Source: Leptolyngbya sp. BL0902 (GTDB lineage Bacteria; Cyanobacteriota; Cyanobacteriia; Phormidesmidales; Phormidesmidaceae). From it: DNA of 64,000 bases. Numbering within the stretch: the stretch's first letter is position 1; every line of letters begins with the position of its first letter. The notes below the pieces were generated by a model. That model was not told the DNA's origin. It saw only the letters and a list, made by a program, of their open reading frames with translations, and did no database searches. Shown in pieces: positions 29,788 to 44,430 of the stretch. The stretch is taken from contig NZ_CP046155.1 in assembly GCF_016403105.1 (NCBI RefSeq), positions 2,170,001 through 2,234,000 on the forward strand, in the 5' to 3' direction. The position numbers and the translations under genes were made by a program.

Positions 29788-31344
29788 CTACTCCATAGCG
29801 TCGCTTTGGACACCCTGGACGATGCGGGACAGTTCGCTCTTTTCGTCCACGGCAATGCGGGTGGGAGAACCGCTGATAATCCGCTCCAGGTTGCGGAAGG
29901 AGTCTTTAATTTCCGGGCCGTGGCTGCTGATGGTGTATTCCCGAATGCCCTTGTCGTGCCAGGAACCGCGCATTTTGAAAACGTTGATGGCGCGAGACAT
30001 TTCGCCGCGTACCTCCACGTATTGCAGCATCAAAATCGTGTCGGTGATGGTGGAAATGTGGGACTCGGTGATGGAGTGCAGCCCCATGAACTGCTCGGTG
30101 GTGTTGGTGAAGAATCCGGTGATTTCCTCCTGCTTGGCAAAGCCCGTGACGCCAATCACAAACTGGCGGAAGGAGTTGTTGCTGACGCCGCGATCCAGGG
30201 CTGAAAGGGAGTCAATCGCCATGCGGGCGGGCTTGAACTGGGAAATCTCGGTCTTGATGATTTGTAGGTGATCTTCCAGGCCAGCGGATTCGGGGTAGGC
30301 GCAGATGATTTTGAGGAGGCCCTGCTGCTCCATGGCCTCAAAGTCGATGCCCCAGGAGTAGGCGTTGCGGGAGAGCTGGGCGCGGGATTCTTCGTAGGCA
30401 AACAGGATGGCCCGTTCTCCGGCCTTGCAGCCATCGACGAGGAACTTGCTGACCAGCAGGGTTTTGCCCGTACCCGTGGCCCCGGTAGCCAAAATGATGG
30501 AATCCTTGAAAAAGCCGCCGCCGCACATTTCGTCGAGGGTGGGCACGCCGGAGGACACCCTGGCATTGGAGGATCGCTGGGTCAATCGCATCGCTCCCAA
30601 GGGGAAAATGTTAACGCCGTCGTTGGTGATGGTGAAGGGATATTCCCCCTTCATGTGGGTGGTGCCGCGAAGCTTGAGGATTTCCATGGTGCGGCGGCGG
30701 CGTTCCCCTTCCAGGGCGTTGCGGACGATCACCACGTTGTCGGAAACAAATTCTTCCACCCCAAAGCGGGCGACGGGGCCGTATTCGTCCAGGCGTTCGG
30801 TGGTCATTACCGTGGTCACGCCCATCAGCTTAAGGCGGGCCACCAGGCGAAAGATTTCTCGCCGCACCACGGAGGCGGCATCGTACTGCTGAAACACCGC
30901 CGTCACCGAGTCGATGGAGACGCGCTTGGCCTTGTATTTGCGGATGGCGTACTGGATCCGCTCGATTAGGGCCGACAGGTCAAAGTTGCCCACCACATCC
31001 TGACCTTCCGGGTCGGGGGAGGCATCGAGGATGAACAGCTTGCCCTCGTCCACCAGCTTTTGCAGATTCCAGCCAAAGCTGTAGGCGTTTTGAATGATGT
31101 CCTCCGGCGATTCCTCGAAGGTGACAAACACACCGGGCTCGTCAAATTCGGTGATGCCGTTGTAGATAAACTGCACCGCAAACAGCGTCTTCCCCGTCCC
31201 GGAGGTGCCGCTGACCAAGGTAGAACGACCCATGGGAATGCCGCCATGGCTGATGTCGTCAAAGCCCTCGATCATGGTGCGGGTTTTGCGAACCCCCAAG
31301 GGCAGGGTAGAGGAGGGCAGATCGGGTTGGGCGTTGTCAGTCAT
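29788..31344 (-). CDS. kaiC: Circadian clock ATPase/autokinase KaiC
   Basis: 518-aa double-domain RecA-like ATPase, the core of the cyanobacterial clock. CI has Walker A GTSGTGKT (46-53) with catalytic E77/E78; CII has GATGTGKT (288-295) with E318/E319. The autophosphorylation block is conserved: T426, S431 and T432 in SITESHISTITDT. Residue 402, reported to set the period through ATPase rate, is Phe (VTGFAKQEE), where the S. elongatus protein has Tyr as I recall it. The C-terminal A-loop and KaiA-binding tail are present. It lies 132 bp after kaiB on the same strand; kaiBC cotranscription is expected. The product forms cytosolic hexamers with KaiA and KaiB. Confidence 0.98.
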   Translation of the reverse strand: MTDNAQPDLPSSTLPLGVRKTRTMIEGFDDISHGGIPMGRSTLVSGTSGTGKTLFAVQFIYNGITEFDEPGVFVTFEESPEDIIQNAYSFGWNLQKLVDEGKLFILDASPDPEGQDVVGNFDLSALIERIQYAIRKYKAKRVSIDSVTAVFQQYDAASVVRREIFRLVARLKLMGVTTVMTTERLDEYGPVARFGVEEFVSDNVVIVRNALEGERRRRTMEILKLRGTTHMKGEYPFTITNDGVNIFPLGAMRLTQRSSNARVSSGVPTLDEMCGGGFFKDSIILATGATGTGKTLLVSKFLVDGCKAGERAILFAYEESRAQLSRNAYSWGIDFEAMEQQGLLKIICAYPESAGLEDHLQIIKTEISQFKPARMAIDSLSALDRGVSNNSFRQFVIGVTGFAKQEEITGFFTNTTEQFMGLHSITESHISTITDTILMLQYVEVRGEMSRAINVFKMRGSWHDKGIREYTISSHGPEIKDSFRNLERIISGSPTRIAVDEKSELSRIVQGVQSDAME

Positions 31345-31476
31345 GGGAAGGGCTTAGGGCAAACAGGAAGGAAGAGGCAAGGCCATCAGGGGTGAGCCAT
31401 TAGCATACCGTGATCCGATGGGCTAGATCTGACTCACAGGGGCTGAGTTGCGGCTCAGCGACAAGGTCATGGTCGG

Positions 31477-31791
31477 TTAGTTGTAGATATCATCCTCACG
31501 GAGTTCATCGTAGAGAAGATCGAGGCCAATCAGCACCCGTTCTCGGTCGGAGAGATCGCCGATAATTTTCCGCACCGGGGGCGGCAAAATCTTTGAGAGG
31601 GTGGGGGTGGCGAGGATCTTATCCTCCTCCGCCAGCTGGGGATTTTTCAGCACATCAATCACCTTGAGGGCATAGACCCCCTGAAACTCTTGTTCGAGAA
31701 TGTTGTTGAGGGTTTTGAGCGCCCGAATCGAATTGGGCGTATTACCCGCCACATAGAGCTTCAGGATGTAGGTTTTTTTGACGGCACTCAT
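31477..31791 (-). CDS. kaiB: Circadian clock protein KaiB
   Basis: 104-aa fold-switching protein that binds phosphorylated KaiC, sequesters KaiA and competes with SasA. Seen: [67 protein letters not shown] and an acidic C-terminus. This is a KaiB1-type sequence of normal length. The frame is open to 31896, but the ATG at 31791 ([10 protein letters not shown]) matches known KaiB N-termini. A perfect TATAAT lies about 55 bp upstream. Confidence 0.97.
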
Positions 31792-31846
31792 GGGCTTATG
31801 CTCTGCAAAGGAAGAACTAGGGAAACCTAGATTAGGGACGCCATTG

Positions 31847-31852
31847 ATTATA
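31847..31852 (-). promoter_or_regulatory. Candidate -10 box of the kaiBC promoter
   Basis: Minus-strand TATAAT (plus-strand ATTATA) in the 174-bp gap between kaiA and kaiB, predicting a transcript start about 50 nt before the kaiB ATG. The hexamer 17 bp further upstream (AAGGGC) is a poor -35, as is common in clock-controlled promoters. Confidence 0.4.
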
Positions 31853-31965
31853 TCGGCTGAACTGAACTCGCCCTTATCCAACTCCCGCAGAACCACTGTC
31901 CGTGGATTTACTGACCCCGTTTTTGACTACAAAGAGGATGGTTGTGGCCTCAGCGGGTGGATAGG

Positions 31966-32817
31966 CTAGGGCTCTCTAGGAATAGAGCGGCGATACATTT
32001 CACAGAGGTGGGCGATCACATCAATCAGGGTGAGACGGTAATCCAGCAAAATTTCCTCACTGCGCCCCTCCAGCTTAAGCTGCTTGGAGAACTCATCCAT
32101 CAAATCCATGTGCATTTCCACAATCAGCGATACCGAAACATCCGCCATGAAGGCTTGATTCACAAAGGCATCAATGTTGGGATTGAGGTTGGCGTCGTTG
32201 GAAAAATAACCCAGCACAATCTTGCGGTAGTCAATTTTGAGCTGGTTGAGAAGCGCGTCACGGTCAACCTGACTCATATTGCGGAGGAAGTATTCGGGAT
32301 TACGCTTGTAGTAAACGCCAAGGTAGCCCAGGCGGGCCTTGAGCTTGTCGGTGAGACGCCCCTGCTGGGCACTCAGCAGTTCGGGAATAGCTGCCGCCGC
32401 CGCAATAGGCGGTAGGACAGGGCTGGCGGGCAATGCCAAAAACTGCTGAATGGCGCGGGTGATGGCGGCTTCCAGTTGGCCGAGGTGGTCGCTGGACAGA
32501 ACCACAACGGCACTGTGGTAGACCTCGGCCCAGGGCTGGTGGGTCAAGCTATGGTCGGAGGGATCCGCCGCTGAAGCAACCACCACTACGGGCAGCAAAA
32601 TGCCCGCCTCGGCCAAGGCGGGCAGCCAGGGTTTCAGCAGGGCATCTTCGGTGACGAGGCAGTCAATTTGAGCGCCTCGATCTCGCAACTGCACCAGACT
32701 CTCCTCCACGGTGGTGCCCAAGCACACCACAAATCGGTCGGGCGATAAAAGCTGCCCCGCCTCAGCCAGCGACTCCCGAGACCGAGCAAGGATATAGATC
32801 TGTAAGGGTGCAACCAA
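31966..32817 (-). CDS. kaiA: Circadian clock regulator KaiA (full-length)
   Basis: 283-aa activator of KaiC autophosphorylation. The N-terminal pseudo-receiver domain spans about residues 1-135. The C-terminal helical KaiC-binding/dimerisation domain carries ERLGYLGVYYKR-type (here ARLGYLGVYYKRNPEYFLRN) and ILLDYRLTLIDVIAHLCEMYRRSIPR sequences. It is full length, unlike the short KaiA of some Nostocales. The only usable start is TTG at 32817 (MVAPLQIYIL): an in-frame stop lies at about 32844, and no ATG or GTG aligns with the conserved N-terminus. Weak initiation may keep KaiA low relative to KaiB and KaiC (inference). Confidence 0.95.
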   Translation of the reverse strand: MVAPLQIYILARSRESLAEAGQLLSPDRFVVCLGTTVEESLVQLRDRGAQIDCLVTEDALLKPWLPALAEAGILLPVVVVASAADPSDHSLTHQPWAEVYHSAVVVLSSDHLGQLEAAITRAIQQFLALPASPVLPPIAAAAAIPELLSAQQGRLTDKLKARLGYLGVYYKRNPEYFLRNMSQVDRDALLNQLKIDYRKIVLGYFSNDANLNPNIDAFVNQAFMADVSVSLIVEMHMDLMDEFSKQLKLEGRSEEILLDYRLTLIDVIAHLCEMYRRSIPREP

Positions 32818-32878
32818 AGTAGCTAATCTGCTAAAAGAACGCTAAACCGTGAACGCCAGCCGCCAATGCTAGCCTGGG

Positions 32879-32908
32879 ATGATAAGCCCAGGATTGAGTG
32901 GCTGTCAG
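32879..32908 (-). promoter_or_regulatory. Candidate kaiA promoter
   Basis: On the minus strand CTGACA (32903-32908) is followed after 18 bp by TATCAT (32879-32884). This is one mismatch from TTGACA and one from TATAAT. The predicted transcript would start near 32872, giving a leader of about 55 nt before the TTG start of kaiA. Confidence 0.4.
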
Positions 32909-33100
32909 AACGTTATCTTAGAGCCCGGCCAGGTCACAAATGTTGATATTTCTTAATTGTAAAGGCTGGTTGCCAGGATGTTGCCTGATTATTGCAATTT
33001 ACAACCTCGCCAATAGAATCGTGATCAGGCCCATGGCTAGCCCCATCACCATCAAGGTGGGCCATGCTCCCACCGTCTTCACCCATAGGGCAGGCTGAGA

Positions 33101-35032
33101 ATGGCGTCGTCGTCTTCGTCCCAGCCGTCTTCACCCCCTAGCCCAGAACCTCCAGCTTTGGGGCTGTGGCCTTGGCTGATGGCGGTACCCAGCTATCCAC
33201 CCACCGCCACCCTCGCCCAGGTGGTGGCCGATCTGGCCCAGCGGGGAGGATCCCCATGGCCTAGCCACATCATTGTGGTAGACAATCATCAGCGCCCCCA
33301 GGGAGCTTTGGCCTTGGGCTGGTTGTGGGTGCGCCAGCAAGGGGAAGATCCCGCCGCCGTGGATCTTCAGGCTTGTTTGGCCCACCTAGAACCCGTGACC
33401 GCTATCCTCGCCGATACCGATCCTAACGACCTGGGGCGGGCGCAAATGGCTCTGTCTGCCTCCTGCTGGGTGGGAGTGGACGCCGAGGGCACCTATCGAG
33501 GCACCGTGAATCGGCTCGCCTTGGTTGATCAGGGGTATGGGCTGTCGGCGGGGCGGGCTGTCGATCACCGTCGGCTACGGGCCGCCTCAGATCAAGAGCA
33601 GCAGTGGGTCATGGCCATTGGCCATGCCCTCAAAAACCCCCTCACGTCCCTATTGGGGCTGTCTACCCTGCTGTTAGATCATCGGGTTGGCCCCCTCAAC
33701 GACCGTCAGGCCCGCTATGCCACCTTGATGCGGCGGGCCATTCGCAAGCTGATCCGCCTTGTGAATCAACTGGTGGACTGGATGCGCCTGGAGGCAGGGC
33801 AAATTGACCTTGAGACGGAGACCCTAGACCTGCGAGCCTTAACGGAAACCCTGCTGCCTACATTTCTCACCAGTTGGCTGCCCGATGCCGTTGCCCCTCC
33901 GCCCTGGATGGCTACCTTTAGCTGCTCTCTGCCCGCCCACCTGCCTGCCCTCAAGGCCGACCAGCGACGGGTTCAGCAAAGTCTGTACGGCGTTTTGGGC
34001 TATCTCCTCCACCGGGGGGCTACCCCTCAAACCCTCACCCTAGAGCCTTGGGGTTCCTGGGTTGGGCTAACGATCCGAGCAGAGGCCCCGGATGCCGACG
34101 TTCCGGCATCCATCCCCTGGACTGTCACCCTGGGGGTCGAGGTAGATAGTTTAGAGACGTTGGGGTTGGCCCTGGCCCGTCGCCTTTGCCAGCAGCAGGG
34201 CGGCGACCTGGTGGGGTTCTGCTCTCCCCTCGATGGCTACCACATTACCCTCCTGTTCCCCCCGGATCGATCCCAGGCCGAGGCAAGGGCAGGGGGCGAT
34301 ACCGGACTGGAACACCTTGTCTTGTTGGTCAGCACCAATGGCAACCAAGTCAGGGCCCTCCAGGAATACCGCACCGACCAAACCATTCGGCTGCTGCTGG
34401 CTACCGGATGGGAGGAGGCCATGGACTTAGCTCAGCGGCTCACCCCATCCCTAGTGTTGCTAGATCAGCCATCCCTGGTAGATTTGCCGCCGAACCCCCT
34501 GGCCATTTTGGCCCAGATGATGCCCCGCCCTGATTCGCTGGTGATGGTGAACAGTGCCGATTCCCTGGCCTTAGCCCTAGCGACCCTGTCCAGACCATCC
34601 CCCGTCCGGGAGATAGTCCCGCCGCCTCTCCCAGCCACCCCTACCCCCAGTCCACCCACCCTGCTGATCTTGGCCTACCGAGGTCGATCTTCCCGCGAAC
34701 CGGGCACCCTCGACACCGACTGGCAGGCTACCCTGCAACGACAGCGCTGCCGTTTGGTGCAGGCCGATGACCTGGTGCAGGCCAGACTACTCTGCCGGGT
34801 GTGGCAGCCCCAGGCCATTGTGCTGACGGGCGGCGAGGGCTTCACCACCGAAGACTGGGACTGGGTGGTGCAATGCCCAGAGCTGATGGAGCGGCCCTGG
34901 ATCACCCTCTCAGCCCTGACTGGCCCTGTTCCGGCTGGGTTAGTGGTGGTGGATGGGGCCCAGATTCTAGCGCCCTCTACGCCGGAAGACCTGGTACATC
35001 TGATACAGATGCTTGAGACTACCCAAGGGTAA
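33101..35032 (+). CDS. CBS-domain protein with degenerate histidine kinase and pseudo-receiver domains
   Basis: 643-aa cytosolic protein divergent from kaiA (283-bp gap). Residues about 25-145 look like a CBS pair (PPTATLAQVVADLAQ, HIIVVDNHQRPQGALALG; PVTAILADTDPNDL, WVGVDAEGTYRGTV). A HisKA helix at about 165-235 keeps His175, but the box reads GHALKNPLT, with Ala in place of the usual acidic residue. The ATPase region has no N-box Asn (SLYGVLGYLLHRG) and no DxGxG motif. Two receiver-like folds follow (from about 405 and 525): the first keeps the LVLLD aspartate but lacks the acidic pair, and the second lacks both. It is probably a pseudokinase sensor or scaffold. This is not SasA, as no KaiB-like domain is seen. 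Confidence 0.8.
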   Translation: MASSSSSQPSSPPSPEPPALGLWPWLMAVPSYPPTATLAQVVADLAQRGGSPWPSHIIVVDNHQRPQGALALGWLWVRQQGEDPAAVDLQACLAHLEPVTAILADTDPNDLGRAQMALSASCWVGVDAEGTYRGTVNRLALVDQGYGLSAGRAVDHRRLRAASDQEQQWVMAIGHALKNPLTSLLGLSTLLLDHRVGPLNDRQARYATLMRRAIRKLIRLVNQLVDWMRLEAGQIDLETETLDLRALTETLLPTFLTSWLPDAVAPPPWMATFSCSLPAHLPALKADQRRVQQSLYGVLGYLLHRGATPQTLTLEPWGSWVGLTIRAEAPDADVPASIPWTVTLGVEVDSLETLGLALARRLCQQQGGDLVGFCSPLDGYHITLLFPPDRSQAEARAGGDTGLEHLVLLVSTNGNQVRALQEYRTDQTIRLLLATGWEEAMDLAQRLTPSLVLLDQPSLVDLPPNPLAILAQMMPRPDSLVMVNSADSLALALATLSRPSPVREIVPPPLPATPTPSPPTLLILAYRGRSSREPGTLDTDWQATLQRQRCRLVQADDLVQARLLCRVWQPQAIVLTGGEGFTTEDWDWVVQCPELMERPWITLSALTGPVPAGLVVVDGAQILAPSTPEDLVHLIQMLETTQG

Positions 35033-35199
35033 GATAGGATACTAAAAGCAACAATATTTAACGAAAACTAGCCCCATAAATTCCATCAACAGCGGCGATC
35101 TGAGAACCATGCCCCAACGATTCCCAGTCCCCTAGCCTCTGCTCGGTTCGCAGTTTAGGGACCTCCCAACTAGGGCCGTTGTGATCTCTGGATCTGGCG

Positions 35200-38100
35200 T
35201 TGGCAGGGCTGAAAAGTGCCTTGTTAACGCTGTCGTTGAGTCGTCTGGCTAGGTTGGCCGTTCCGCTCGGTCATTTTGCTTGGCACTTTAGTTTGGCAGT
35301 TTCGCACCAAGATTCTGTGAGTAATGATCGCGACTTCCAGTGTCAACCTACCGCCTACCAACGGTTGATTGACAGCTTGCCTGGGATTGTCTTCCAATCC
35401 GTCAATGACCATGACTGGTCCATGCGCTATCTCAGTGCAGGCTGTCAGCGGCTGACGGGCTATTCAGCGGAGGAACTCCTGGGAACAGATAATGACCTTA
35501 CCTACAATCGCATCACCCACCCTGAGGATTTACCCCGCGTGATGGAGACCATTCGGAGCGACCTGGCGACCCACCAAACCTACGAAGTGGAGTATCGCCT
35601 GCTGCCCCGCAGCGGAGGCGAAAAATGGGTGTGGGAGAAGGGCATCGCGGTGCTCGATCAAACGGGCCAAGTGGTTCGCCTGGAGGGCTTCATTACCGAC
35701 ATTACCCCCCTCAAGCAGTCAGAGGCCGCCCTCCGCACCATCGAGCAGACCCTGCGGTCGCGGGAGTCCTTGCTGCATCTGGTGCTAGACAGCATCCCCC
35801 AGCCCGTCTTTTGGAAGGATCGCCAGAGTCGTTATCTGGGCTGCAATCGGGCCTTTGCGGCGGCAATGGGGGTGGCGGATCCCCAGGAGGTCGTTGGCAA
35901 AACGGACGCCGACCTAACGTTAGTCAGCGCCGAGGAGGCCGCCTACTACCAGGCCCGCGACCGCCTGGTGATGGATCACAACCAGCCCGATCTCCATTCC
36001 CTAGAGCCCCAATACTATGCCGATGGCCAGCAGCGCTGGATCGACTGTAGCCGTCTGCCCATGCACAACGACCAGGGTGACGTGATTGGCATCCTGGCCA
36101 TTTTTGCCGATATGACCGATCAAGTCCTAGCCCACCAGGCGCTCAAGCTCCGCGAATCCTACCTGTCTACCGTGTCGGCGCTGCAACACCAGTTGCTCAG
36201 TTGGCAGTGGGACTGGGCCGATCCCAACCTGAGACGGGTATTTGCCACCCTGGGGGAGGTCTCCAAGGCCAGCCGCGTGTACTACTACGAACTGTTCCAA
36301 GACGAGACGGCGACGTTGCGACTGCGCCAGCGGTTTGAATGGTCAGCCCCTGGGATTCCGGCGACGTCGGATCTCCCGGCCTACCAAGTGATGCCTCTGG
36401 TGCCGCTGTTTGAGGACTGGTATCCCCCCCTAGCCCAGGGCCAATGCCTAAACCTCACCCAGGATCAGTTTTCGGAGCTTCAGTACCAGGCCCTCTCGCT
36501 GCCGCCCAGCAACGTTAAGTCCTTGCTGCTGCTGCCGTTGATCATCCAAGGGCAGTTACAGGGAGTGATGGGTTTTAGTCAGTGCGTGACCGCCCAAACC
36601 TGGGGCCAAGCCGAGGTGGACTTGCTTCAGGTGGTGACGGCGGATATGGCCCTAGCCCTAGAGCGGCAACAGTCAGAACAGGCCCTGCGAGCAGCGGAGG
36701 CCAAGTATCGAAGCATGTTTGAAAATGCCGTTGAGGGAATCTTTCAAACTACGCCCGACGGCCACTACCTAACCGCTAACCCCATGCTGGCGAAGATCTA
36801 TGGCTACGATTCGGTGGAGGAGCTGATGGATCGCCTCACCGACATTGATCACCAGCTCTACGTCCATGCCCATCGGCGGCAGGAGTTCATCAATGCCATT
36901 GATCGCACCGGGGCGGTCATTGGGTTTGAGTCGGAGGTCTACCGAAAGGATGGCCGCATCATCTGGATTTCCGAATCGGCCCGGGCCATCTATGACGACC
37001 AAGGCAGCATCATGGGCTACGAGGGCACGGTCGAGGACATCTCCGAGCGCAAACGGGGTGAAGCTGAACTTCTGCGGCGAGACCAGCTCTTGCAGGGGGT
37101 GGCCCAGGCCAGTCATCGGCTGTTGGCGGCGGCCCACATTGATGCGGTCATCCCGGAGGTGTTGGCCATTTTGGGAGAATCGGCCAATACCGACCGGGCC
37201 TACATCTACGAGCACCATCCCCACTCCCAAACCGGGGCCGTGGCCATGAGTATGCGCTACGAATGGACCCGACCAGGCATTGCCCCCACCATCACCCAGC
37301 CCCACTGGCAGGACCAGGCCTACGAAACCCTAGGGGTGCAGCGCTGGTACGAGGCGTTTGCAGCCAATCGGCCCATCGCCGGTTTGGTGCGCCACTTCCC
37401 CGCCCAGGAGCAGACCCTGCTGTATCGGGATGACATTCTCTCGATTTTGATGGTGCCGATCTTCATCGACCAAGACCTATGGGGCTACATTGGCTTTGAT
37501 GCCTGCCGCGAGGAATGGGAATGGAGCACCAGCGATGAGTCCATCCTCGTCACCGTGGCAGCGAGTTTGGGGGGCTTGCTGAAGCGCCAGCAAACCGAGC
37601 AGGAAATGTACCACCAGGCCTACCACGATACCCTCACGGGCCTGCCCAACCGCACGTTTTTCAACCAACACCTGCCCGAAGCCCTGAACCAGGCCCGCAA
37701 CAGCGACCAAATGCTGGCGGTGGTGTTCCTCGACCTGGATCGGTTCAAAACCATCAACGACACCCTCAGCCACGCCGTGGGGGATTTATTGTTGCAGCAA
37801 GTCACCCAGCGCATCGCCAAAACCCTGCGGGCGGGGGATATTGTGTCTCGCTGGGGTGGGGATGAATTCACCCTAATTTTGCCCAATATTTCCAGCGCCG
37901 AAGACTGCGCTAAGGTGGCCCAGCGGATCGCCCATCAGCTCACTGAGCCCTTCTTGCTCGATGGCCACGAGCTCTATGTCACCACCAGCATCGGCATCGC
38001 CCTCTATCCCCACGATGGCGACGAAATGAGCGTGCTGCTGCAAAACGCCGATGCCGCCATGTATCGCGCCAAGGAACAGGGCCGCAACACCTATCAGTTC

Positions 38101-38949
38101 TACACCCAATCCCTCAGCACCGAAGTGAGTCAGCGGCTTCAGCTCGAAAGCTACCTGCACCATGCCCTGTCTCGCCAAGAACTGCTGCTTCACTACCAGC
38201 CCCAGGTCGATCTAGCGACAGGCAATGTGGTGCAAATGGAAGCCTTACTGCGCTGGCACCATCCCCAACTGGGCCTCGTCAGCCCACCAGCCTTCATTCC
38301 CCTGGCAGAGGAGACCGGGCTGATTATTCCCATTGGGGAGTGGGTATTGCGAAGCGCCTGCGCCCAGGCCATGGCTTGGCAGCGGCAGATAGGGTGCCCC
38401 ATTCGGATAGCTGTCAACCTATCGGCCCGCCAGCTTCAGCACCCCGACCTCGTTGCCGTTGTGGCCTCAGTGCTGAAGGACACGGGGCTCCCCCCCCAGG
38501 ATCTAGAGCTAGAAATTACCGAGACCACCGCCATGAAAGACGTCGAAGCTTCAATTCGGCGATTGCTGGCCCTGCAACGCCTGGGGGTTCGCATCTCCAT
38601 GGACGACTTTGGTACCGGATACTCCTGCCTCAGCTACCTCAAGCAAATTCCCCTCACGGGCCTCAAAATTGACCGGGCCTTTGTGAAGGATTTGCCCACC
38701 AACGCCGCCGACCAAGCCATGGTGCAGGCCATCACCGCCATGGCCCAAGGGCTGGGGCTGAGTGTGGTGGCAGAAGGGGTCGAAACCCTAGAGCAAATGA
38801 CCTATCTCCGTCGCTACCACTGCTACGTCATGCAGGGCTACCTCTTGGGCAAACCGCTCCCCGCCGCCACCGCCGCCCACTACTTAACCCATCGTTACGA
38901 TTATCTCCAGCCTGCATCACCCCTGTCTCGCCTGCCATCGGCCTCCTAG
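35200..38949 (+). CDS. PAS/GAF multi-sensor diguanylate cyclase/phosphodiesterase (GGDEF-EAL)
   Basis: 1,249-aa c-di-GMP enzyme. Approximate domains: PAS 50-175, PAS 190-310, GAF 330-495, PAS 500-630, GAF 650-805, GGDEF 810-975, EAL 985-1235. The cyclase site is intact (RWGGDEFTL), with the inhibitory RxxD site (RAGD) five residues before it. The EAL site is intact: MEALLRWHHP, VNLSARQL, ELEITETTAM, DDFGTGYS, LKIDRAF, AEGVET. Both activities are thus possible. The start is unclear: TTG at 35200 gives a hydrophobic N-terminus, and GTG at 35317 (VSNDRDFQ) begins just before the first PAS. It lies 167 bp downstream of the degenerate kinase gene. Confidence 0.92.
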   Translation: MAGLKSALLTLSLSRLARLAVPLGHFAWHFSLAVSHQDSVSNDRDFQCQPTAYQRLIDSLPGIVFQSVNDHDWSMRYLSAGCQRLTGYSAEELLGTDNDLTYNRITHPEDLPRVMETIRSDLATHQTYEVEYRLLPRSGGEKWVWEKGIAVLDQTGQVVRLEGFITDITPLKQSEAALRTIEQTLRSRESLLHLVLDSIPQPVFWKDRQSRYLGCNRAFAAAMGVADPQEVVGKTDADLTLVSAEEAAYYQARDRLVMDHNQPDLHSLEPQYYADGQQRWIDCSRLPMHNDQGDVIGILAIFADMTDQVLAHQALKLRESYLSTVSALQHQLLSWQWDWADPNLRRVFATLGEVSKASRVYYYELFQDETATLRLRQRFEWSAPGIPATSDLPAYQVMPLVPLFEDWYPPLAQGQCLNLTQDQFSELQYQALSLPPSNVKSLLLLPLIIQGQLQGVMGFSQCVTAQTWGQAEVDLLQVVTADMALALERQQSEQALRAAEAKYRSMFENAVEGIFQTTPDGHYLTANPMLAKIYGYDSVEELMDRLTDIDHQLYVHAHRRQEFINAIDRTGAVIGFESEVYRKDGRIIWISESARAIYDDQGSIMGYEGTVEDISERKRGEAELLRRDQLLQGVAQASHRLLAAAHIDAVIPEVLAILGESANTDRAYIYEHHPHSQTGAVAMSMRYEWTRPGIAPTITQPHWQDQAYETLGVQRWYEAFAANRPIAGLVRHFPAQEQTLLYRDDILSILMVPIFIDQDLWGYIGFDACREEWEWSTSDESILVTVAASLGGLLKRQQTEQEMYHQAYHDTLTGLPNRTFFNQHLPEALNQARNSDQMLAVVFLDLDRFKTINDTLSHAVGDLLLQQVTQRIAKTLRAGDIVSRWGGDEFTLILPNISSAEDCAKVAQRIAHQLTEPFLLDGHELYVTTSIGIALYPHDGDEMSVLLQNADAAMYRAKEQGRNTYQFYTQSLSTEVSQRLQLESYLHHALSRQELLLHYQPQVDLATGNVVQMEALLRWHHPQLGLVSPPAFIPLAEETGLIIPIGEWVLRSACAQAMAWQRQIGCPIRIAVNLSARQLQHPDLVAVVASVLKDTGLPPQDLELEITETTAMKDVEASIRRLLALQRLGVRISMDDFGTGYSCLSYLKQIPLTGLKIDRAFVKDLPTNAADQAMVQAITAMAQGLGLSVVAEGVETLEQMTYLRRYHCYVMQGYLLGKPLPAATAAHYLTHRYDYLQPASPLSRLPSAS

Positions 38950-39100
38950 CCTGGATTCTGGCCTTTGGCCCTCCCCTGCTGTGGATAGCCTTACTCTTCT
39001 CTCAGTGAAGAATTATTGAGGTATCACAAGTTACACGACTTCCCTTGGGAAGATTAAGGGGTGTAGAGGCCAGGGTTGCGAACGCGCCCTATAACATTCC

Positions 39101-39568
39101 ATGAATAACGCACTCCTAGAGGCTATCCAAAAATCCGATGGTCGCTACCTGAACGACCAAGAACTGCGCTCCTTCGACGAACTAGCCGAGGCCTTTCAAA
39201 CTCGCATCGCCGCCTACCTATACATCAAAGAGCACAGCAAAGAATTGGTGATCAATGCGCTGCGGCGGCTGATTCAAACCCCCCATCGGCAGGTGGTGCA
39301 AGAGCACGGAGCCCAGTGCCAGCGGGACATGATGTATACCCTGGAGTACATCGCCAAGGGCTTGCTGCTGCGGGATGAAGACGGCTTCATGGAAGAGTAC
39401 CTGGTGTGGATGCAGAACATCCTCCGCGCCTTCCATCGTCAGGATGCCTGCGTTGTCGCCTACAAGCTGCTGAAGGAAGAGGTGCGTACCACCATGCCTG
39501 GAGATCAGTCCAACACGGTAATCCTCTACCTCGAAAAACTCATTGAAGCCCTTGATACTGGCATTTAA
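39101..39568 (+). CDS. Solitary phycobiliprotein-like (phycobilisome family) protein
   Basis: 155-aa globin-like helical protein. Seen: QCQRDMMYTLEYIAKGLLLR, matching the phycobilin attachment block C-x-R-D-x2-Y-x-L of phycocyanin and allophycocyanin, with Cys73 as the bilin-binding equivalent. Also seen is an N-terminal pair of helices like phycobilisome subunits. It lacks a partner alpha/beta subunit gene, and its sequence is too divergent to be a standard ApcA/B/D/F or CpcA/B. Role unknown: assembly factor, chromophore carrier or sensor. No ribosome site precedes the ATG; a TATAAC at 39089-39094 suggests a very short leader. Confidence 0.8.
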   Translation: MNNALLEAIQKSDGRYLNDQELRSFDELAEAFQTRIAAYLYIKEHSKELVINALRRLIQTPHRQVVQEHGAQCQRDMMYTLEYIAKGLLLRDEDGFMEEYLVWMQNILRAFHRQDACVVAYKLLKEEVRTTMPGDQSNTVILYLEKLIEALDTGI

Positions 39569-39781
39569 GTTGTATCAAATCATGCCTAGGAGTGGGTTCG
39601 CCCTAGGGCATACGCCTCTGCAAGACACCCAGCGGCAGGGAAAACGGCGGCGCTCCCCAGGTTGGGCTGCGCCGGAGGCCGGGGCTTAAAGTGGCGTTAA
39701 CCCGGCAGGGCAAAGGGCGCTATAGAATGGCTGGCATAGGCTTCTGTTTGTACTATTCATCCATTGTTGAGAGGCGCTGCC

Positions 39782-40156
39782 ATGCTGAATCCGGCCCACG
39801 CTATTGCGCTGTTTGCGAAGGCTCCCGATGTGCAGGTCTATAGAGCAGGGGACGTCATTTTTGAGATTGGCGCTGTTGGCCAAGTGATGTATGGCGTGAT
39901 TGAGGGCGAGGTAGACATGCTGGTAAACGGCAAGGTCTTTGAGACCATTCAAGCCGGAGACGTGTTCGGGGAAGGAGCCCTGGTGCAGGATCCGCCCCTA
40001 CGGGCCTCAACTGCCGTGGCCAAAACCGACTGTAAACTCGCCGCTGTGGATCAAACTCACTTCAAGTTTTTGGTGCAAGAAACCCCCCTCTTTGCCCTAG
40101 AGGTGATTCGCAGTATGTCTACCCGGCTGCGGAGTGCCAAGGCCAATCTCGCCTAG
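39782..40156 (+). CDS. Stand-alone cyclic-nucleotide-binding domain protein
   Basis: 124 aa, a single CNB domain and little else. Cassette: [18 protein letters not shown], with the Glu and Arg-Ala-Ser positions kept. There is no DNA-binding or catalytic domain. A TATAGAAT box lies at 39721-39728, about 54 bp upstream of the ATG. The start at 39782 is preferred over an upstream TTG at 39764. It must act through a partner protein, which cannot be identified here; pgi follows 112 bp downstream on the same strand. Confidence 0.87.
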
Positions 40157-40268
40157 GATTTTGGGAGAAAGGCAGTGTTATCTCACGATTCAGCCGAAAT
40201 TCCTCAAAACGAAAGAGCACCCCTTCAGTACACTAATAGAGCATTGGGTTCGTACGAGGACTAAGCGC

Positions 40269-41858
40269 ATGACGGCAGCGGCTCTTTGGCAACGCTACAA
40301 GGACTGGCTCTACTATCACGAGCGACTGGGCTTTTACCTCGACGTCAGTCGCATGGGGTTTGACGATGCCTTTGTGGCCAAGATGCAGCCCCGTTTTGCT
40401 AAAGCCTTTGAGGACATGGCGGCCCTGGAGGCCGGAGCCATCGCCAACCCCGACGAAAACCGCATGGTGGGCCACTACTGGCTGCGGAATGCTGATCTTG
40501 CCCCCACCCCAGAACTCAAGCAAGACATTCTAGACACCCTGTTTCACATTGAGCAGTTTGCCAGCCAGGTACGCACCGGGGGGATTTGCCCACCAGGGCA
40601 AGAGCACTTTACCGATGTCCTGTCCATCGGCATTGGCGGGTCAGCCTTGGGGCCACAGTTTGTAGCCCAAGCCCTAGGGCCAGATTTCCCGCCCCTCAAG
40701 ATTCACTTTATTGACAACACCGATCCCGAAGGCATTGACCGCACCCTCGCCAAGCTGGAGGACGTGCTGCCCACCACGCTAGTCATCGTCACCTCCAAAT
40801 CCGGCGGCACCCCCGAAACCCGCAACGGTATGTTGGAGGTGATGAATAAGTTTGCTGCCAAGGGGCTAGATTTCCCCAAGCAGGCGGTGGCCGTCACCGG
40901 GCGGGGGAGCCTCCTGGAAAACCAGGCTATCCAAGAGGGCTGGCTGGCCACCTTCCCCATGCGCGATTGGGTCGGGGGCCGTACCTCGGAACTGTCCGCT
41001 GTGGGTCTGCTGCCTGCGGCCCTGCAAAACATCAGCATTCGATCCATCCTGGGTGGGGCCAAGGAAATGGACATCGCCACCCGCGTGCCCGACCTGCGCC
41101 GCAACCCCGCCGCCCTGATTGCCCTCGCCTGGTATTACGCGGGCAACGGCAGGGGCGATAAGGACATGGTGGTATTGCCCTACAAAGACAGCCTGCTGCT
41201 GTTCAGCCGCTACCTCCAGCAGCTCGTGATGGAGTCCCTCGGCAAAGAAAAAGACCTCGACGGCAACGTGGTCTATCAGGGCATCGCCGTCTACGGCAAC
41301 AAGGGTTCCACAGACCAACACGCCTACGTGCAGCAGCTTCGGGACGGTCTGCCCAGCTTCTTTGTCACCTTCATTGAGGTGATGAAGGATCGGGCTGGAG
41401 AATCCATCGAGCTAGAACCGGGCATCACCTCCGGCGATTATCTGTTTGGCTTTTTGCAGGGCACCCGCAAAGCCCTCTACGACAACGCCCGCGAATCCAT
41501 CACCATCACCATTCCCGAAGTGAATGCCCACACCGTCGGGGCACTCATCGCTCTCTACGAGCGGGCCGTGGGGCTCTATGCCTCCCTGGTGAATATCAAC
41601 GCCTACCACCAGCCGGGGGTAGAGGCCGGGAAAAAAGCCGCCGCTGAGGTATTAAAAGTGCAGACGGCTATTGTGGACACCCTGCGCCAAAGCGAGACCC
41701 CCCTCAGCCTGAAGGAACTGGCTGAAAACGCTGGTTATCCCGATGACATTGAAACCATCTACGCCCTCGTTCGCCACCTCCACTCCAACCAGCGCCAGGT
41801 GGTCATCCACGGTAATCCAGGCTATCCCGATGTGATCAAAATCGCCGCCATTGCCTAG
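40269..41858 (+). CDS. pgi: Glucose-6-phosphate isomerase
   Basis: 529-aa enzyme interconverting glucose-6-phosphate and fructose-6-phosphate in glycolysis, gluconeogenesis and glycogen turnover. Seen: [33 protein letters not shown] (phosphate-binding), [16 protein letters not shown] and [17 protein letters not shown]. The length fits cyanobacterial PGI. The frame is open back to 40134 inside the CNB gene, but ATG at 40269 ([17 protein letters not shown]) is the conserved start. Its neighbours suggest control linked to second messengers only by proximity. Confidence 0.96.
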
Positions 41859-41925: not shown

Positions 41926-44430
41926 CTAACGCTGATGGAACGTCAGTCTGAGGGGCGTTTTGGTCTGGTCTAGGGGATGCACTGTGCCAATGATGGCGGC
42001 GGCGGGGTAGCCCTGCTGATGCAACTGCTCTAGGCAGGCGTTAGCTTGGTCGGCGGGTACGGCGGCGAGCAAGCCTCCAGCGGTTTGGGGATCAAACAGC
42101 AGGGGATAGGAGGGGTGGCGGGCGTAGTCGGCGGCGTGGGCGATGGACTGAGCGGCCTGTAGATTCTGGGCTTGTAGGGAACTGACGATTCCCTGGGCGA
42201 GGGTTTCGTGGGCACCGGGCAACAGGGGCAGGGCATCGAGATCAACGGTGGTGCTAACCGCTGAGGCATTGACCATCTCCAGCAGATGCCCCGCTAGGCC
42301 AAACCCCGTCACGTCCGTACAAGCGGTGGCTTGGTGCTGCCGAAAAATCTCGGCGGCGGCGCGATTGGGGGTGATCATGGCCTCAATTGCCGCCTCAATC
42401 CAGCGACCCTTGGCCCGTTTCTGCATGTCCGCTGCAAACAGGGTGCCCGTGCCCAGGGCTTGGGTCAGAATCAGCCGATTGCCCGCCTCCATCCCGCCCT
42501 TGCGGAGGAGGTGATCGGGATCCGCGACCCCGTTGCAGGCAAAGCCCAGGGCTAGGTTTGGGCCTTCTATCGTATGGCCACCAACGAGGGGGGTGCCTGT
42601 AACCTCTAACCCTGTGTAAATGCCGGACAGCAGGTGATAAAGGGTTTCCGTCTGGAGCTTCGGCGTGGCATAGGGCAGTTGCACCATAGCTAGTACGCTG
42701 TGGGGCTGGGCTCCCATGGCATCGAGGTCGCTGAGGCCATGCTTGAGGGCAATTTGGGCAAAGACGAAGGGATCGTCCACCAACGCCGGGAAGTAATCCA
42801 CCGTGTGCACCATCACCCGACCGGGGGGGACGGCCATCACGGCAGCATCGTCGGGGGATTCTAGGCCAATCAGCAGGTCTTCTGGGGCGGTGGCAAGGTG
42901 AGGAAAATCCAGTCGGACACGACGGATAGCCTGGGAGAGGACGGTGCTGCCAATTTTGGAGCCGCAGCCGGAGCAGGGGAGTGGGGAGTGGGGAGTCGGG
43001 AGTGGGGAGTGGGGCGTCGGGAGTCGGAAGTGGGGCGTCGGGAGTGGGGGGGATTGGGGAGGGGAGGTCATGGCCGGGAAGTCGGTGAACAGGGCCATGA
43101 ATTTGCGGTCGATGTGGTCTTTCCAGCGGCGGCAGAGGGGAGATTCCCAGGCAAGAGGGCCACGGGCGGCAATGGTGTTGCCATAGCCCACGTCGATGAG
43201 GTTCAGAAATTTCTGCTGGGGCCGAAAGGGTTGGAGGGGTTGGCCTTGCAAGAATCGGCGCAGGTTCTCGTAGAGCGGCTGGCCTTGGCGCACGGCAAAC
43301 ACGCCTGCCTTGGGGCGGGGATGGTTGACCATGGTGGCCACATCCCCAGCGGCAAAGATGTTGGGATGGGACAGGGTTTGCAGGGTGTCGCCCACTTGAA
43401 TAAAGCCCTGAGTGTCTAGGGACAGACCGGAATCCTGGAGCCAGCTAGGGGCGGCGGCATTCGTCACCCAAAAAACGCGATCACACCCCACCGCTAATCC
43501 AGACTCGCTGTGGACAATGCTTTGTCCTGTCGCCTCATCCAGGGTGATGGCCGTCACGGCATCCTTCAGATGTACCTCAATGCCCCGCTCCTGGCAGATT
43601 TGCAGAATGCGGCGTCTTGTCCAGCGGTTGCGGCCCTCCGCCAGTTCAGATCCGCGATGGAAGAGGTGAAGGGTGGCCCTCACCCCCCGGCCCCCTCTCC
43701 CACGGGGAGAGGGGGAGCTAGAGTTTTCAACGTCCTTTTCCTGTGGGAAGAGGGATTTAGGGAGTGGGAGATCAGGGGAGTCGGGAGTCGGGAGTCGAGA
43801 GTCGGAAGGATCGTCAAAGTCCCTCTCCCTGGGGGAGAGGGATTTAGGGTGAGGGCCATCTAGGGAATCAGGCAACAAGCTTTCCAGAAATGTCGTTAGC
43901 CGAGCCTCCATGTTCAGGGTGAGTTCTACGCCGCCTACGCCGCCGCCGACAATGGCAATGGTGCGCGGCTGATCGGGCTGGGCCTGGATTTCCGCTAAAA
44001 AGTCCTGCCACTGGTGGAGGAGTTTGGGAACAGGTTTGGCGGGGATGGCGTAGTCTGAAGCACCGGGGACGGTGAAGGTGGCGGGGGTGCTGCCTGTGTT
44101 GATGGACAGCACATCAAAGGCGATGGGGGGATGGTGGGCGCAAAGCACCCGCTGATTGGCCAAATCCAGCCCCACGGCTCGATCCATCACCAGGCGGCAG
44201 TTCGCGAACCGGGTGAGGGGGCGCAGGTCGATGTGGGCTTCATCGAAGTCATACACTCCGGCCACATGGCTGGGCAGCATCCCGGAATAGGGGGTGTCTA
44301 CCAGGTCGGTAATCAGGGTCAGCCGCACGCCGGGGAGGGGATTCATGCCCCACTTTCGCAAGACTAGGGCGTGGCTATGGCCGCCGCCCAGAAGCACGAG
44401 GTCGGTGGTAAGGGGCGTAGCTGGCATCAT
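41926..44430 (-). CDS. selD: FAD-dependent oxidoreductase fused to selenide, water dikinase (SelD)
   Basis: 834 aa. Residues 1-445 are an NDH-2-like FAD/NAD(P) domain (LVLLGGGHSHALVL, IAIVGGGVGGVELTL, NIFAAGDVATM). SelD begins at about 487 with CSGCGSKIG: the catalytic Cys is present and the second Cys of the bacterial CxC is Ser. Later come SPDDAAVMAVP, GLSDLDAMGAQP, GGHTIEGP, TGFGLAGHLLEM and DPQTAGGLL. SelD makes selenophosphate, probably for 2-selenouridine in tRNA. The fusion is known in cyanobacteria. Two repeat-derived inserts occur: about 60 residues at 191-251 inside the FAD domain, and a Pro-rich linker at about 460-486. No upstream stop or frameshift was found. Confidence 0.93.
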   Translation of the reverse strand: MMPATPLTTDLVLLGGGHSHALVLRKWGMNPLPGVRLTLITDLVDTPYSGMLPSHVAGVYDFDEAHIDLRPLTRFANCRLVMDRAVGLDLANQRVLCAHHPPIAFDVLSINTGSTPATFTVPGASDYAIPAKPVPKLLHQWQDFLAEIQAQPDQPRTIAIVGGGVGGVELTLNMEARLTTFLESLLPDSLDGPHPKSLSPRERDFDDPSDSRLPTPDSPDLPLPKSLFPQEKDVENSSSPSPRGRGGRGVRATLHLFHRGSELAEGRNRWTRRRILQICQERGIEVHLKDAVTAITLDEATGQSIVHSESGLAVGCDRVFWVTNAAAPSWLQDSGLSLDTQGFIQVGDTLQTLSHPNIFAAGDVATMVNHPRPKAGVFAVRQGQPLYENLRRFLQGQPLQPFRPQQKFLNLIDVGYGNTIAARGPLAWESPLCRRWKDHIDRKFMALFTDFPAMTSPPQSPPLPTPHFRLPTPHSPLPTPHSPLPCSGCGSKIGSTVLSQAIRRVRLDFPHLATAPEDLLIGLESPDDAAVMAVPPGRVMVHTVDYFPALVDDPFVFAQIALKHGLSDLDAMGAQPHSVLAMVQLPYATPKLQTETLYHLLSGIYTGLEVTGTPLVGGHTIEGPNLALGFACNGVADPDHLLRKGGMEAGNRLILTQALGTGTLFAADMQKRAKGRWIEAAIEAMITPNRAAAEIFRQHQATACTDVTGFGLAGHLLEMVNASAVSTTVDLDALPLLPGAHETLAQGIVSSLQAQNLQAAQSIAHAADYARHPSYPLLFDPQTAGGLLAAVPADQANACLEQLHQQGYPAAAIIGTVHPLDQTKTPLRLTFHQR
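42976..43045. repeat. Heptamer array inside selD, encoding the inter-domain linker
   Basis: Ten consecutive 7-bp units of the (C/G)GGGAGT family, with a few single-base variants (GGGGCGT, CGGAAGT). On the coding strand it yields LPTPHSPLPTPHSPLP immediately before the SelD catalytic CSGCGSK. The array is 70 bp, so flanking bases must complete the frame. Confidence 0.92.
43677..43857. repeat. Composite repeat insert inside the FAD domain of the selD fusion
   Basis: About 180 bp built from a CCCCCTCTCC/GGAGAGGGGG hairpin (about 43677-43723), a GGGAAGAGGGATTTAGGG segment, a four-unit heptamer array (43775-43802) and a second CCCTCTCCC/GGGAGAGGG hairpin (about 43820-43857). It is translated as about 60 Ser/Pro/Arg-rich residues with the telltale SLSPRER and PSPRGRGG motifs of these elements. 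Confidence 0.85.

Follow-up and report, generated by a model that had tools for sequence, protein, structure and literature searches.

A sensor histidine kinase gene stands divergent from kaiA in most cyanobacteria examined, with a pseudokinase form in Leptolyngbya sp. BL0902

The stretch of DNA analysed here (the window) comprises 64,000 nucleotides of Leptolyngbya sp. BL0902 (contig NZ_CP046155.1, positions 2,170,001 to 2,234,000), a cyanobacterium with a genome of 4.7 Mb, and carries the clock genes kaiA, kaiB and kaiC next to a divergently transcribed gene for a sensor histidine kinase, which is followed by further signalling genes and by pgi (Table 1). An earlier note on this DNA had proposed that all of these genes form an undescribed input or output module of the clock. 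The placing of the kinase beside kaiA proved to be conserved and the remaining order did not, and the conserved core of the island is kaiABC together with one divergent sensor-kinase gene, an arrangement found back-to-back in most of the cyanobacteria examined. The family, its architecture and occurrence, its divergent position and the loss of its ATP site with the histidine kept are computational observations, and its part in the clock is proposed by analogy.

All genes named in the earlier note are present in the order and on the strands it gave, according to the open reading frame (ORF) list and a Pfam scan, from which the domain assignments of the window proteins were taken. Each gene was taken to begin at its first start codon, and lengths are accordingly upper bounds. 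The window kinase is laid out as a degenerate CBS-like N-terminus, a HisKA domain with its histidine (HALKN), a degenerate HATPase domain and two pseudo-receivers (PsR1 and PsR2). Scans of the island with Rfam and for tRNAs returned no matches, and promoter and terminator scans returned about what is expected from shuffled sequence.

Table 1. Features of the kai locus and its neighbours, in window coordinates.
Feature	Position	Strand	Basis and remarks
kaiC	29788..31344	-	Pfam KaiC ATPase 2.8e-127, two stretches
kaiB	31477..31791	-	Pfam KaiB 1.6e-29; start 31791 likely, picked from sequence reading; ORF list start 31896
kaiA, full length, N-terminal domain present	31966..32817	-	Pfam KaiA and KaiA_N
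Intergenic region of 283 bp separating kaiA from the divergent kinase gene	32818..33100	.	Sequence
kaiA-linked sensor histidine pseudokinase	33101..35032	+	HisKA 3.5e-11; PsR2 profile 94 bits; motif table
CBS-like N-terminal region of the pseudokinase	33158..33529	+	Family profile A6 against PDB CBS structures
Second pseudo-receiver (PsR2), diagnostic domain of the kinase family	34658..35029	+	Profile search
PAS/GAF-GGDEF-EAL enzyme of cyclic dimeric guanosine monophosphate (c-di-GMP), putative	35200..38949	+	Pfam PAS, GAF, GGDEF, EAL
Divergent phycobiliprotein-like protein	39101..39568	+	Pfam Phycobilisome 3.3e-17; C-x-R-D motif by eye
Stand-alone cyclic-nucleotide-binding (CNB) domain protein	39764..40156	+	Pfam cNMP_binding 2.6e-17
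pgi, glucose-6-phosphate isomerase	about 40134..41858	+	Pfam PGI 1.2e-56; true start probably downstream of the listed GTG

The occurrence of the kinase was followed with a profile of PsR2, built from the C-terminal domain of 38 family members (the window included) and searched in 146 genomes of the class. Scores left a gap between the family, at 51 bits or more, and the background, at 39 bits or less, and the family threshold of 51 bits was chosen after this gap was visible; the weakest counted member (in genome G076) scores 51.4 bits and the next 73.2 bits. The window protein, itself one of the 38 profile rows, reaches 94.4 bits (E 1.5e-26). Strong matches were found in 87 of the 146 genomes, one in each. 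All 87 belong to the 128 genomes in which KaiA was found, and the 18 genomes without kaiA yielded no strong match. The match lies 2.6–4.3 kb from kaiA in 79 of the 87, always upstream and divergent, and these linked genes span 19 of the 30 sampled kaiA-bearing families, which makes the surviving part of the earlier proposal stronger than its author could know. Since the 38 profile rows were picked beside kaiA, the raw count favours linkage; without their source genomes it stands at 41 of 49. A second draw of 117 genomes of the phylum gave 34 matches, all from the class and none from the other classes; 18 of these members were new, each in a genome with kaiA, and 15 of them are linked and divergent at about 3–6 kb (positions compared by eye).

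Histidine kinases are abundant, and any such gene that happened to lie beside kaiA might give the same picture; HisKA-HATPase relatives are indeed widespread, with at least 557 contig stretches encoding one. However, the PsR2 profile returns a single match per genome, more than 10 bits above background, and most members share one place and orientation, also in genomes outside the profile. On the specificity of the profile and on the second draw, a generic neighbour by chance was rejected as extremely improbable.

The same pairing emerges from the kai loci themselves. Stretches around kaiA were taken from 99 of the 128 genomes (a hundredth stretch was a stray without kaiA), and gene calls place a family member divergent beside kaiA in 62 of them, plus one locus (L050) where the gene is split into two ORFs. 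Unbiased clustering of neighbours by overall similarity recovered kaiA at 99 loci, kaiB and kaiC at 92 each and a kinase at 71, in 23 families and on the divergent strand throughout, with the next-best cluster at 14; this kinase cluster may take in some other kinases, and the count therefore rests on the PsR2 profile. At two loci of one family (L034 and L037, in G012 and G057) the kinase and kaiA stand together with no kaiB or kaiC match in the stretch, which indicates that it is kaiA, not kaiBC, with which the kinase stays. Named records with the kinase divergent from kaiA are Chlorogloeopsis fritschii PCC 6912 (L132) and an Okeania metagenome-assembled genome (L133), both drawn from 80 loci returned by a contig search with the kinase alignment that was swamped by generic kinases. 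As a separate observation, KaiA lacks its N-terminal domain in families f26 and f31 (for example L070 and L096) and in C. fritschii (open frames of about 100–200 residues), and the adjacent kinase there still has pseudo-receivers.

The architecture of the family was read from several alignments: A1, with 62 of 76 picked upstream genes and the window protein (63 rows; the other 14 were put in A2), A3, with 42 rows including one non-member (L122), and the profile A6, with 37 rows including the window. Members in A1 are 643–1241 residues long (median 1004), and many of them are predicted to consist of a CBS pair, a PAS-like region, HisKA and HATPase domains and pseudo-receivers. Pfam recognises HisKA in 42/42, HATPase_c in 34/42 and CBS in 19/42 rows of A3, and the N-terminal profile A6 matches CBS structures, AMPK gamma at 6e-7. 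The window kinase on its own has no Pfam HATPase_c or CBS match up to E 0.1, so that the CBS domain claimed for it earlier is not significant in the single protein and draws its support from the family. The PAS-like region after the CBS pair was recognised by eye; a C...C.C.C pattern within it, present in 29 of the 63 members and in none of the degenerate ones, is a possible metal or redox site. At residues 358–371 of the L116 protein, and at the equivalent positions of others, the cluster reads C...TCxCxC. The profile of PsR1 matches receivers such as PleD, with 2j48, which we take to be the CikA pseudo-receiver, lower at 2e-8; its phosphoacceptor column holds Asp in 3 and Asn in 42 of the 63 rows. 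Long members carry, by inspection, a further receiver-like tail.

The phosphoacceptor histidine is kept in all 63 rows of A1. Of these rows, 51 retain the ATP site (N-box Asn and D-x-G-x-G) and 12 have lost it; the 12 include the window and its genus, in which Ala follows the histidine. Active histidine kinases are recognised by the same N-box Asn and D-x-G-x-G, and the window protein has neither: with the N-box Asn and the G1 Asp gone and the histidine retained, the term pseudo-kinase used in the earlier note is apt, and the kinase of the window lineage is, to judge by its sequence, probably catalytically dead. On a quick KaiABC tree of 93 rows, made with no mixture model, four changes are required to account for the pseudokinase state, and well-supported branches force three of them. 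The tree counts changes and not their direction, and we infer that the ATP-site changes are losses. Its state "absent" stands for loci at which no kinase was called next to kaiA, and so covers the split gene of L050 and genomes with an unlinked copy; L034 and L037 are left out for lack of a kaiC match. The locus L067, presumably Thermosynechococcus (the species is taken from its KaiA match), carries a pseudokinase form. The ratio of nonsynonymous to synonymous substitution rates (dN/dS) is 0.25, 0.11 and 0.15 in three pseudokinase pairs, low values which indicate that the degenerate forms tested evolve under constraint. Five kinase pairs gave 0.065–0.165, two of them at dS above 1; a sixth was saturated. 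If kinases beside kaiA have repeatedly been turned into pseudokinases, a role other than catalysis would be indicated.

The region between the two genes bears on a different explanation, namely that common regulatory DNA keeps the arrangement and the kinase serves another pathway, for example with kinase and kaiA both being outputs controlled by RpaA/RpaB. The layout is divergent over a short intergenic region, with a median of 366 bp over 63 regions with rough gene starts. Of the 60 usable regions, 19 contain HLR1-like half-sites, a modest excess over the 9.8 (standard deviation 2.7) in shuffles, the half-site being one of seven patterns tried in genomes that are not independent, and a candidate RpaA motif has been reported 5' of the kai genes of Anabaena (PMC8064755). 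On the other hand, no tandem HLR1 site was present among the regions searched. TTACA, TATAAT and TTGACA were near or modestly above the shuffles, and the NtcA and CRP patterns were below. Promoter sharing alone also leaves unexplained why the kinase occurs only with kaiA and why apparently dead forms are kept up beside it, and we consider it unlikely as the whole account.

Beyond the kinase, the island does not hold together. When the 99 kai stretches, 90 of which extend at least 9.1 kb upstream of kaiA, were searched with 14 window proteins, the GGDEF-EAL gene was found 3' of the kinase only in the window's genus (3/3 sampled; the relatives are L032 and L033) and in L042 of G113, the single sampled genome from another genus of the same family. 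Its product, with GGDEF at residue 886, EALLRW at 1014 and DDFGTGYS at 1135, bears the signature motifs of both domains and is a putative c-di-GMP enzyme. At L062, L077, L100 and L114 the gene after the kinase resembles it over the PAS stretch only, and the GGDEF motif is absent from the genes of L062 and L077, the two checked. The phycobiliprotein-like gene lies near kaiA in L042 only, among the 99 other stretches. Neither the CNB protein nor pgi has a match in any of them. In the two other genomes of the window's genus the orthologs of the phycobiliprotein-like protein (71–72% identical) and of the CNB protein (67–68%) lie on contigs other than that of kaiA. On the far side of the cluster, the DUF456 gene beyond kaiC likewise has no match at the 99 loci, 93 of which extend at least 800 bases past the kaiC match.

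A single module would have the kinase, the c-di-GMP enzyme, the bilin protein, the CNB protein and pgi acting jointly on or from the clock. The adjacency of kinase and GGDEF-EAL gene in the genus and in G113, the latter with the phycobiliprotein-like gene nearby as well, speaks for it, as does a report that c-di-GMP alters the period and phase of the clock of Synechococcus elongatus by way of factors not yet identified (PMC13001216). In view of that report, the GGDEF-EAL gene that follows the kinase is of interest in the window's genus. Because the accessory neighbours are not kept near kaiA, with phycobiliprotein-like and CNB orthologs off its contig in both same-genus genomes and no pgi or CNB match near other kai loci, the island is not a conserved unit, and the single module was rejected as very improbable. 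We regard the GGDEF-EAL gene as a possible local addition and the phycobiliprotein-like, CNB and pgi genes as bystanders, most probably; of the signalling genes around the kinase in the window genome, the majority seem to be there by local coincidence. The same genome encodes, at a distant site (G000:C1:1161897-1162358), another copy of the phycobiliprotein-like protein, 49% identical. Downstream of pgi, at 41926-44430, a pyridine nucleotide-disulphide oxidoreductase is fused to an AIRS (SelD-type) domain, with low-complexity inserts of SPLPTPHS-type repeats.

One of the nearest known systems is CikA of S. elongatus, which shares with the window kinase a histidine kinase core and a C-terminal pseudo-receiver, tandem here rather than single. 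The pseudo-receiver of CikA inhibits its kinase and binds quinones and KaiB (PMC12632262, also the source for the features of CikA). The family differs in its N-terminal CBS pair, its tandem pseudo-receivers and its gene beside kaiA, and its link with the clock rests on gene position. A GAF domain is absent from the window kinase by Pfam and occurs in 1/42 rows of A3, the non-member L122 being one of these rows, and identity with CikA was rejected on this ground. SasA, likewise a histidine kinase associated with the Kai clock, has a KaiB-like N-terminal domain; the window kinase has no Pfam KaiB match, and SasA too was rejected. The HrmK/hybrid histidine kinase model of NCBIfam is the best one for the four other members scanned and covers HisKA-HATPase and, in intact members, the first receiver. 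Its scores are 37.9 bits for the window, 69.6 for L067 and 275–295 for L116, L132 and L133, all five below the cut-off of 725, and HrmK was rejected as well; none of the NCBIfam models listed for these five kinases reached its cut-off.

The purple bacteria Rhodopseudomonas and Rhodobacter are known to carry kaiC and kaiB in one operon together with a PAS/HK gene, so that a sensor kinase gene is placed with kai there too (PMC4794148, PMC5520375); the operon as described includes no kaiA, and the likeness is one of gene arrangement. Twelve cikA-like kinases have been described in Nostoc punctiforme, two of them diel-cycling (Npun_R5149 and Npun_R2903) (PMC12691664). Our literature search returned no account of the kinase beside kaiA in cyanobacteria, subscription papers being mostly outside the search and an earlier mention being possible. 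The neighbour of kaiA in Nostoc PCC 7120 is, we assume, all2883. This gene is listed among predicted CRP regulons (PMC2633013).

Taken together, we think it likely that the locus represents an old two-part clock locus, in which kaiABC is accompanied by a divergently transcribed family of CikA-like sensor histidine kinases. The kinase would couple the state of the cell to the KaiABC oscillator or to its RpaA/RpaB output. The CBS pair would sense that state, together, in many members, with the cysteine-bearing PAS-like region. By analogy with CikA, the state sensed might be adenylate or redox. The pseudo-receivers would gate the kinase or dock on Kai proteins, and the form of the window lineage could play the part of a scaffold, of a phosphatase or phosphotransfer partner, or of an inhibitor.

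Several points weigh against this interpretation. A shared promoter region can preserve gene order without a shared pathway. The PsR2 profile comes from kaiA-adjacent members only, and unlinked divergent members could escape it; eight of the 87 members it found are unlinked (six on other contigs, two on the kaiA contig at 74 kb and 1.2 Mb), as are 3 of the 18 new members in the second draw, on a contig other than that of kaiA. Few lineages are represented among the 18 genomes without kaiA, which makes co-occurrence alone weak evidence. PsR2 is identified as a receiver by weak profile matches only, and the predicted structures are of low confidence (predicted local distance difference test scores of 40 and 55), with Foldseek matches to PleD and other receivers that are only suggestive. 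A strong PsR2 match is missing from 41 of the 128 kaiA-bearing genomes of the first draw, including all 7 such genomes of family f2, and from 9 of the 30 kaiA-bearing families, one of which (f30) has the kinase in the second draw. The 7 kinase-less genomes of the second draw that were checked all have kaiA, and the KaiABC clock evidently does not need the kinase. One kinase-less genome carries a KaiA (L125) identical at 283/284 positions to PDB 5n8y, which we take to be KaiA of S. elongatus. In S. elongatus, identified in this way, there is no strong PsR2 match (0/2 in its family). The family is therefore not orthologous to any of the S. elongatus clock factors listed in the compilation of PMC5520375. 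G062 also has no strong PsR2 match. Five kinase-less loci of one family (L036, L039, L040, L041 and L044) have in common a gene of about 1200 codons near kaiA, on the kaiA strand. The KaiA C-terminus of L084, the locus of G062, looks to us like that of a Synechocystis relative.

Research on the clock of cyanobacteria has been based largely on S. elongatus, and the two-part locus suggests an overlooked clock partner that is missing from this standard laboratory model. A wider reading, which we offer tentatively and hold to be somewhat less probable than its opposite, is that in most cyanobacteria the kai locus includes a fourth part of ancestral origin, namely an energy/redox-sensing kinase that sets or reads the KaiABC clock by means of its AMPK-gamma-like CBS pair and cysteine-bearing PAS-like region; S. 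elongatus and its relatives would have lost this kinase, and several lineages, that of the window included, would have made of it a clock-serving pseudokinase, possibly joined by a c-di-GMP enzyme. If many cyanobacteria do carry a further clock-locus kinase with a domain of the nucleotide-sensing type, the way in which energy and redox state set their clock may depart from the textbook account.

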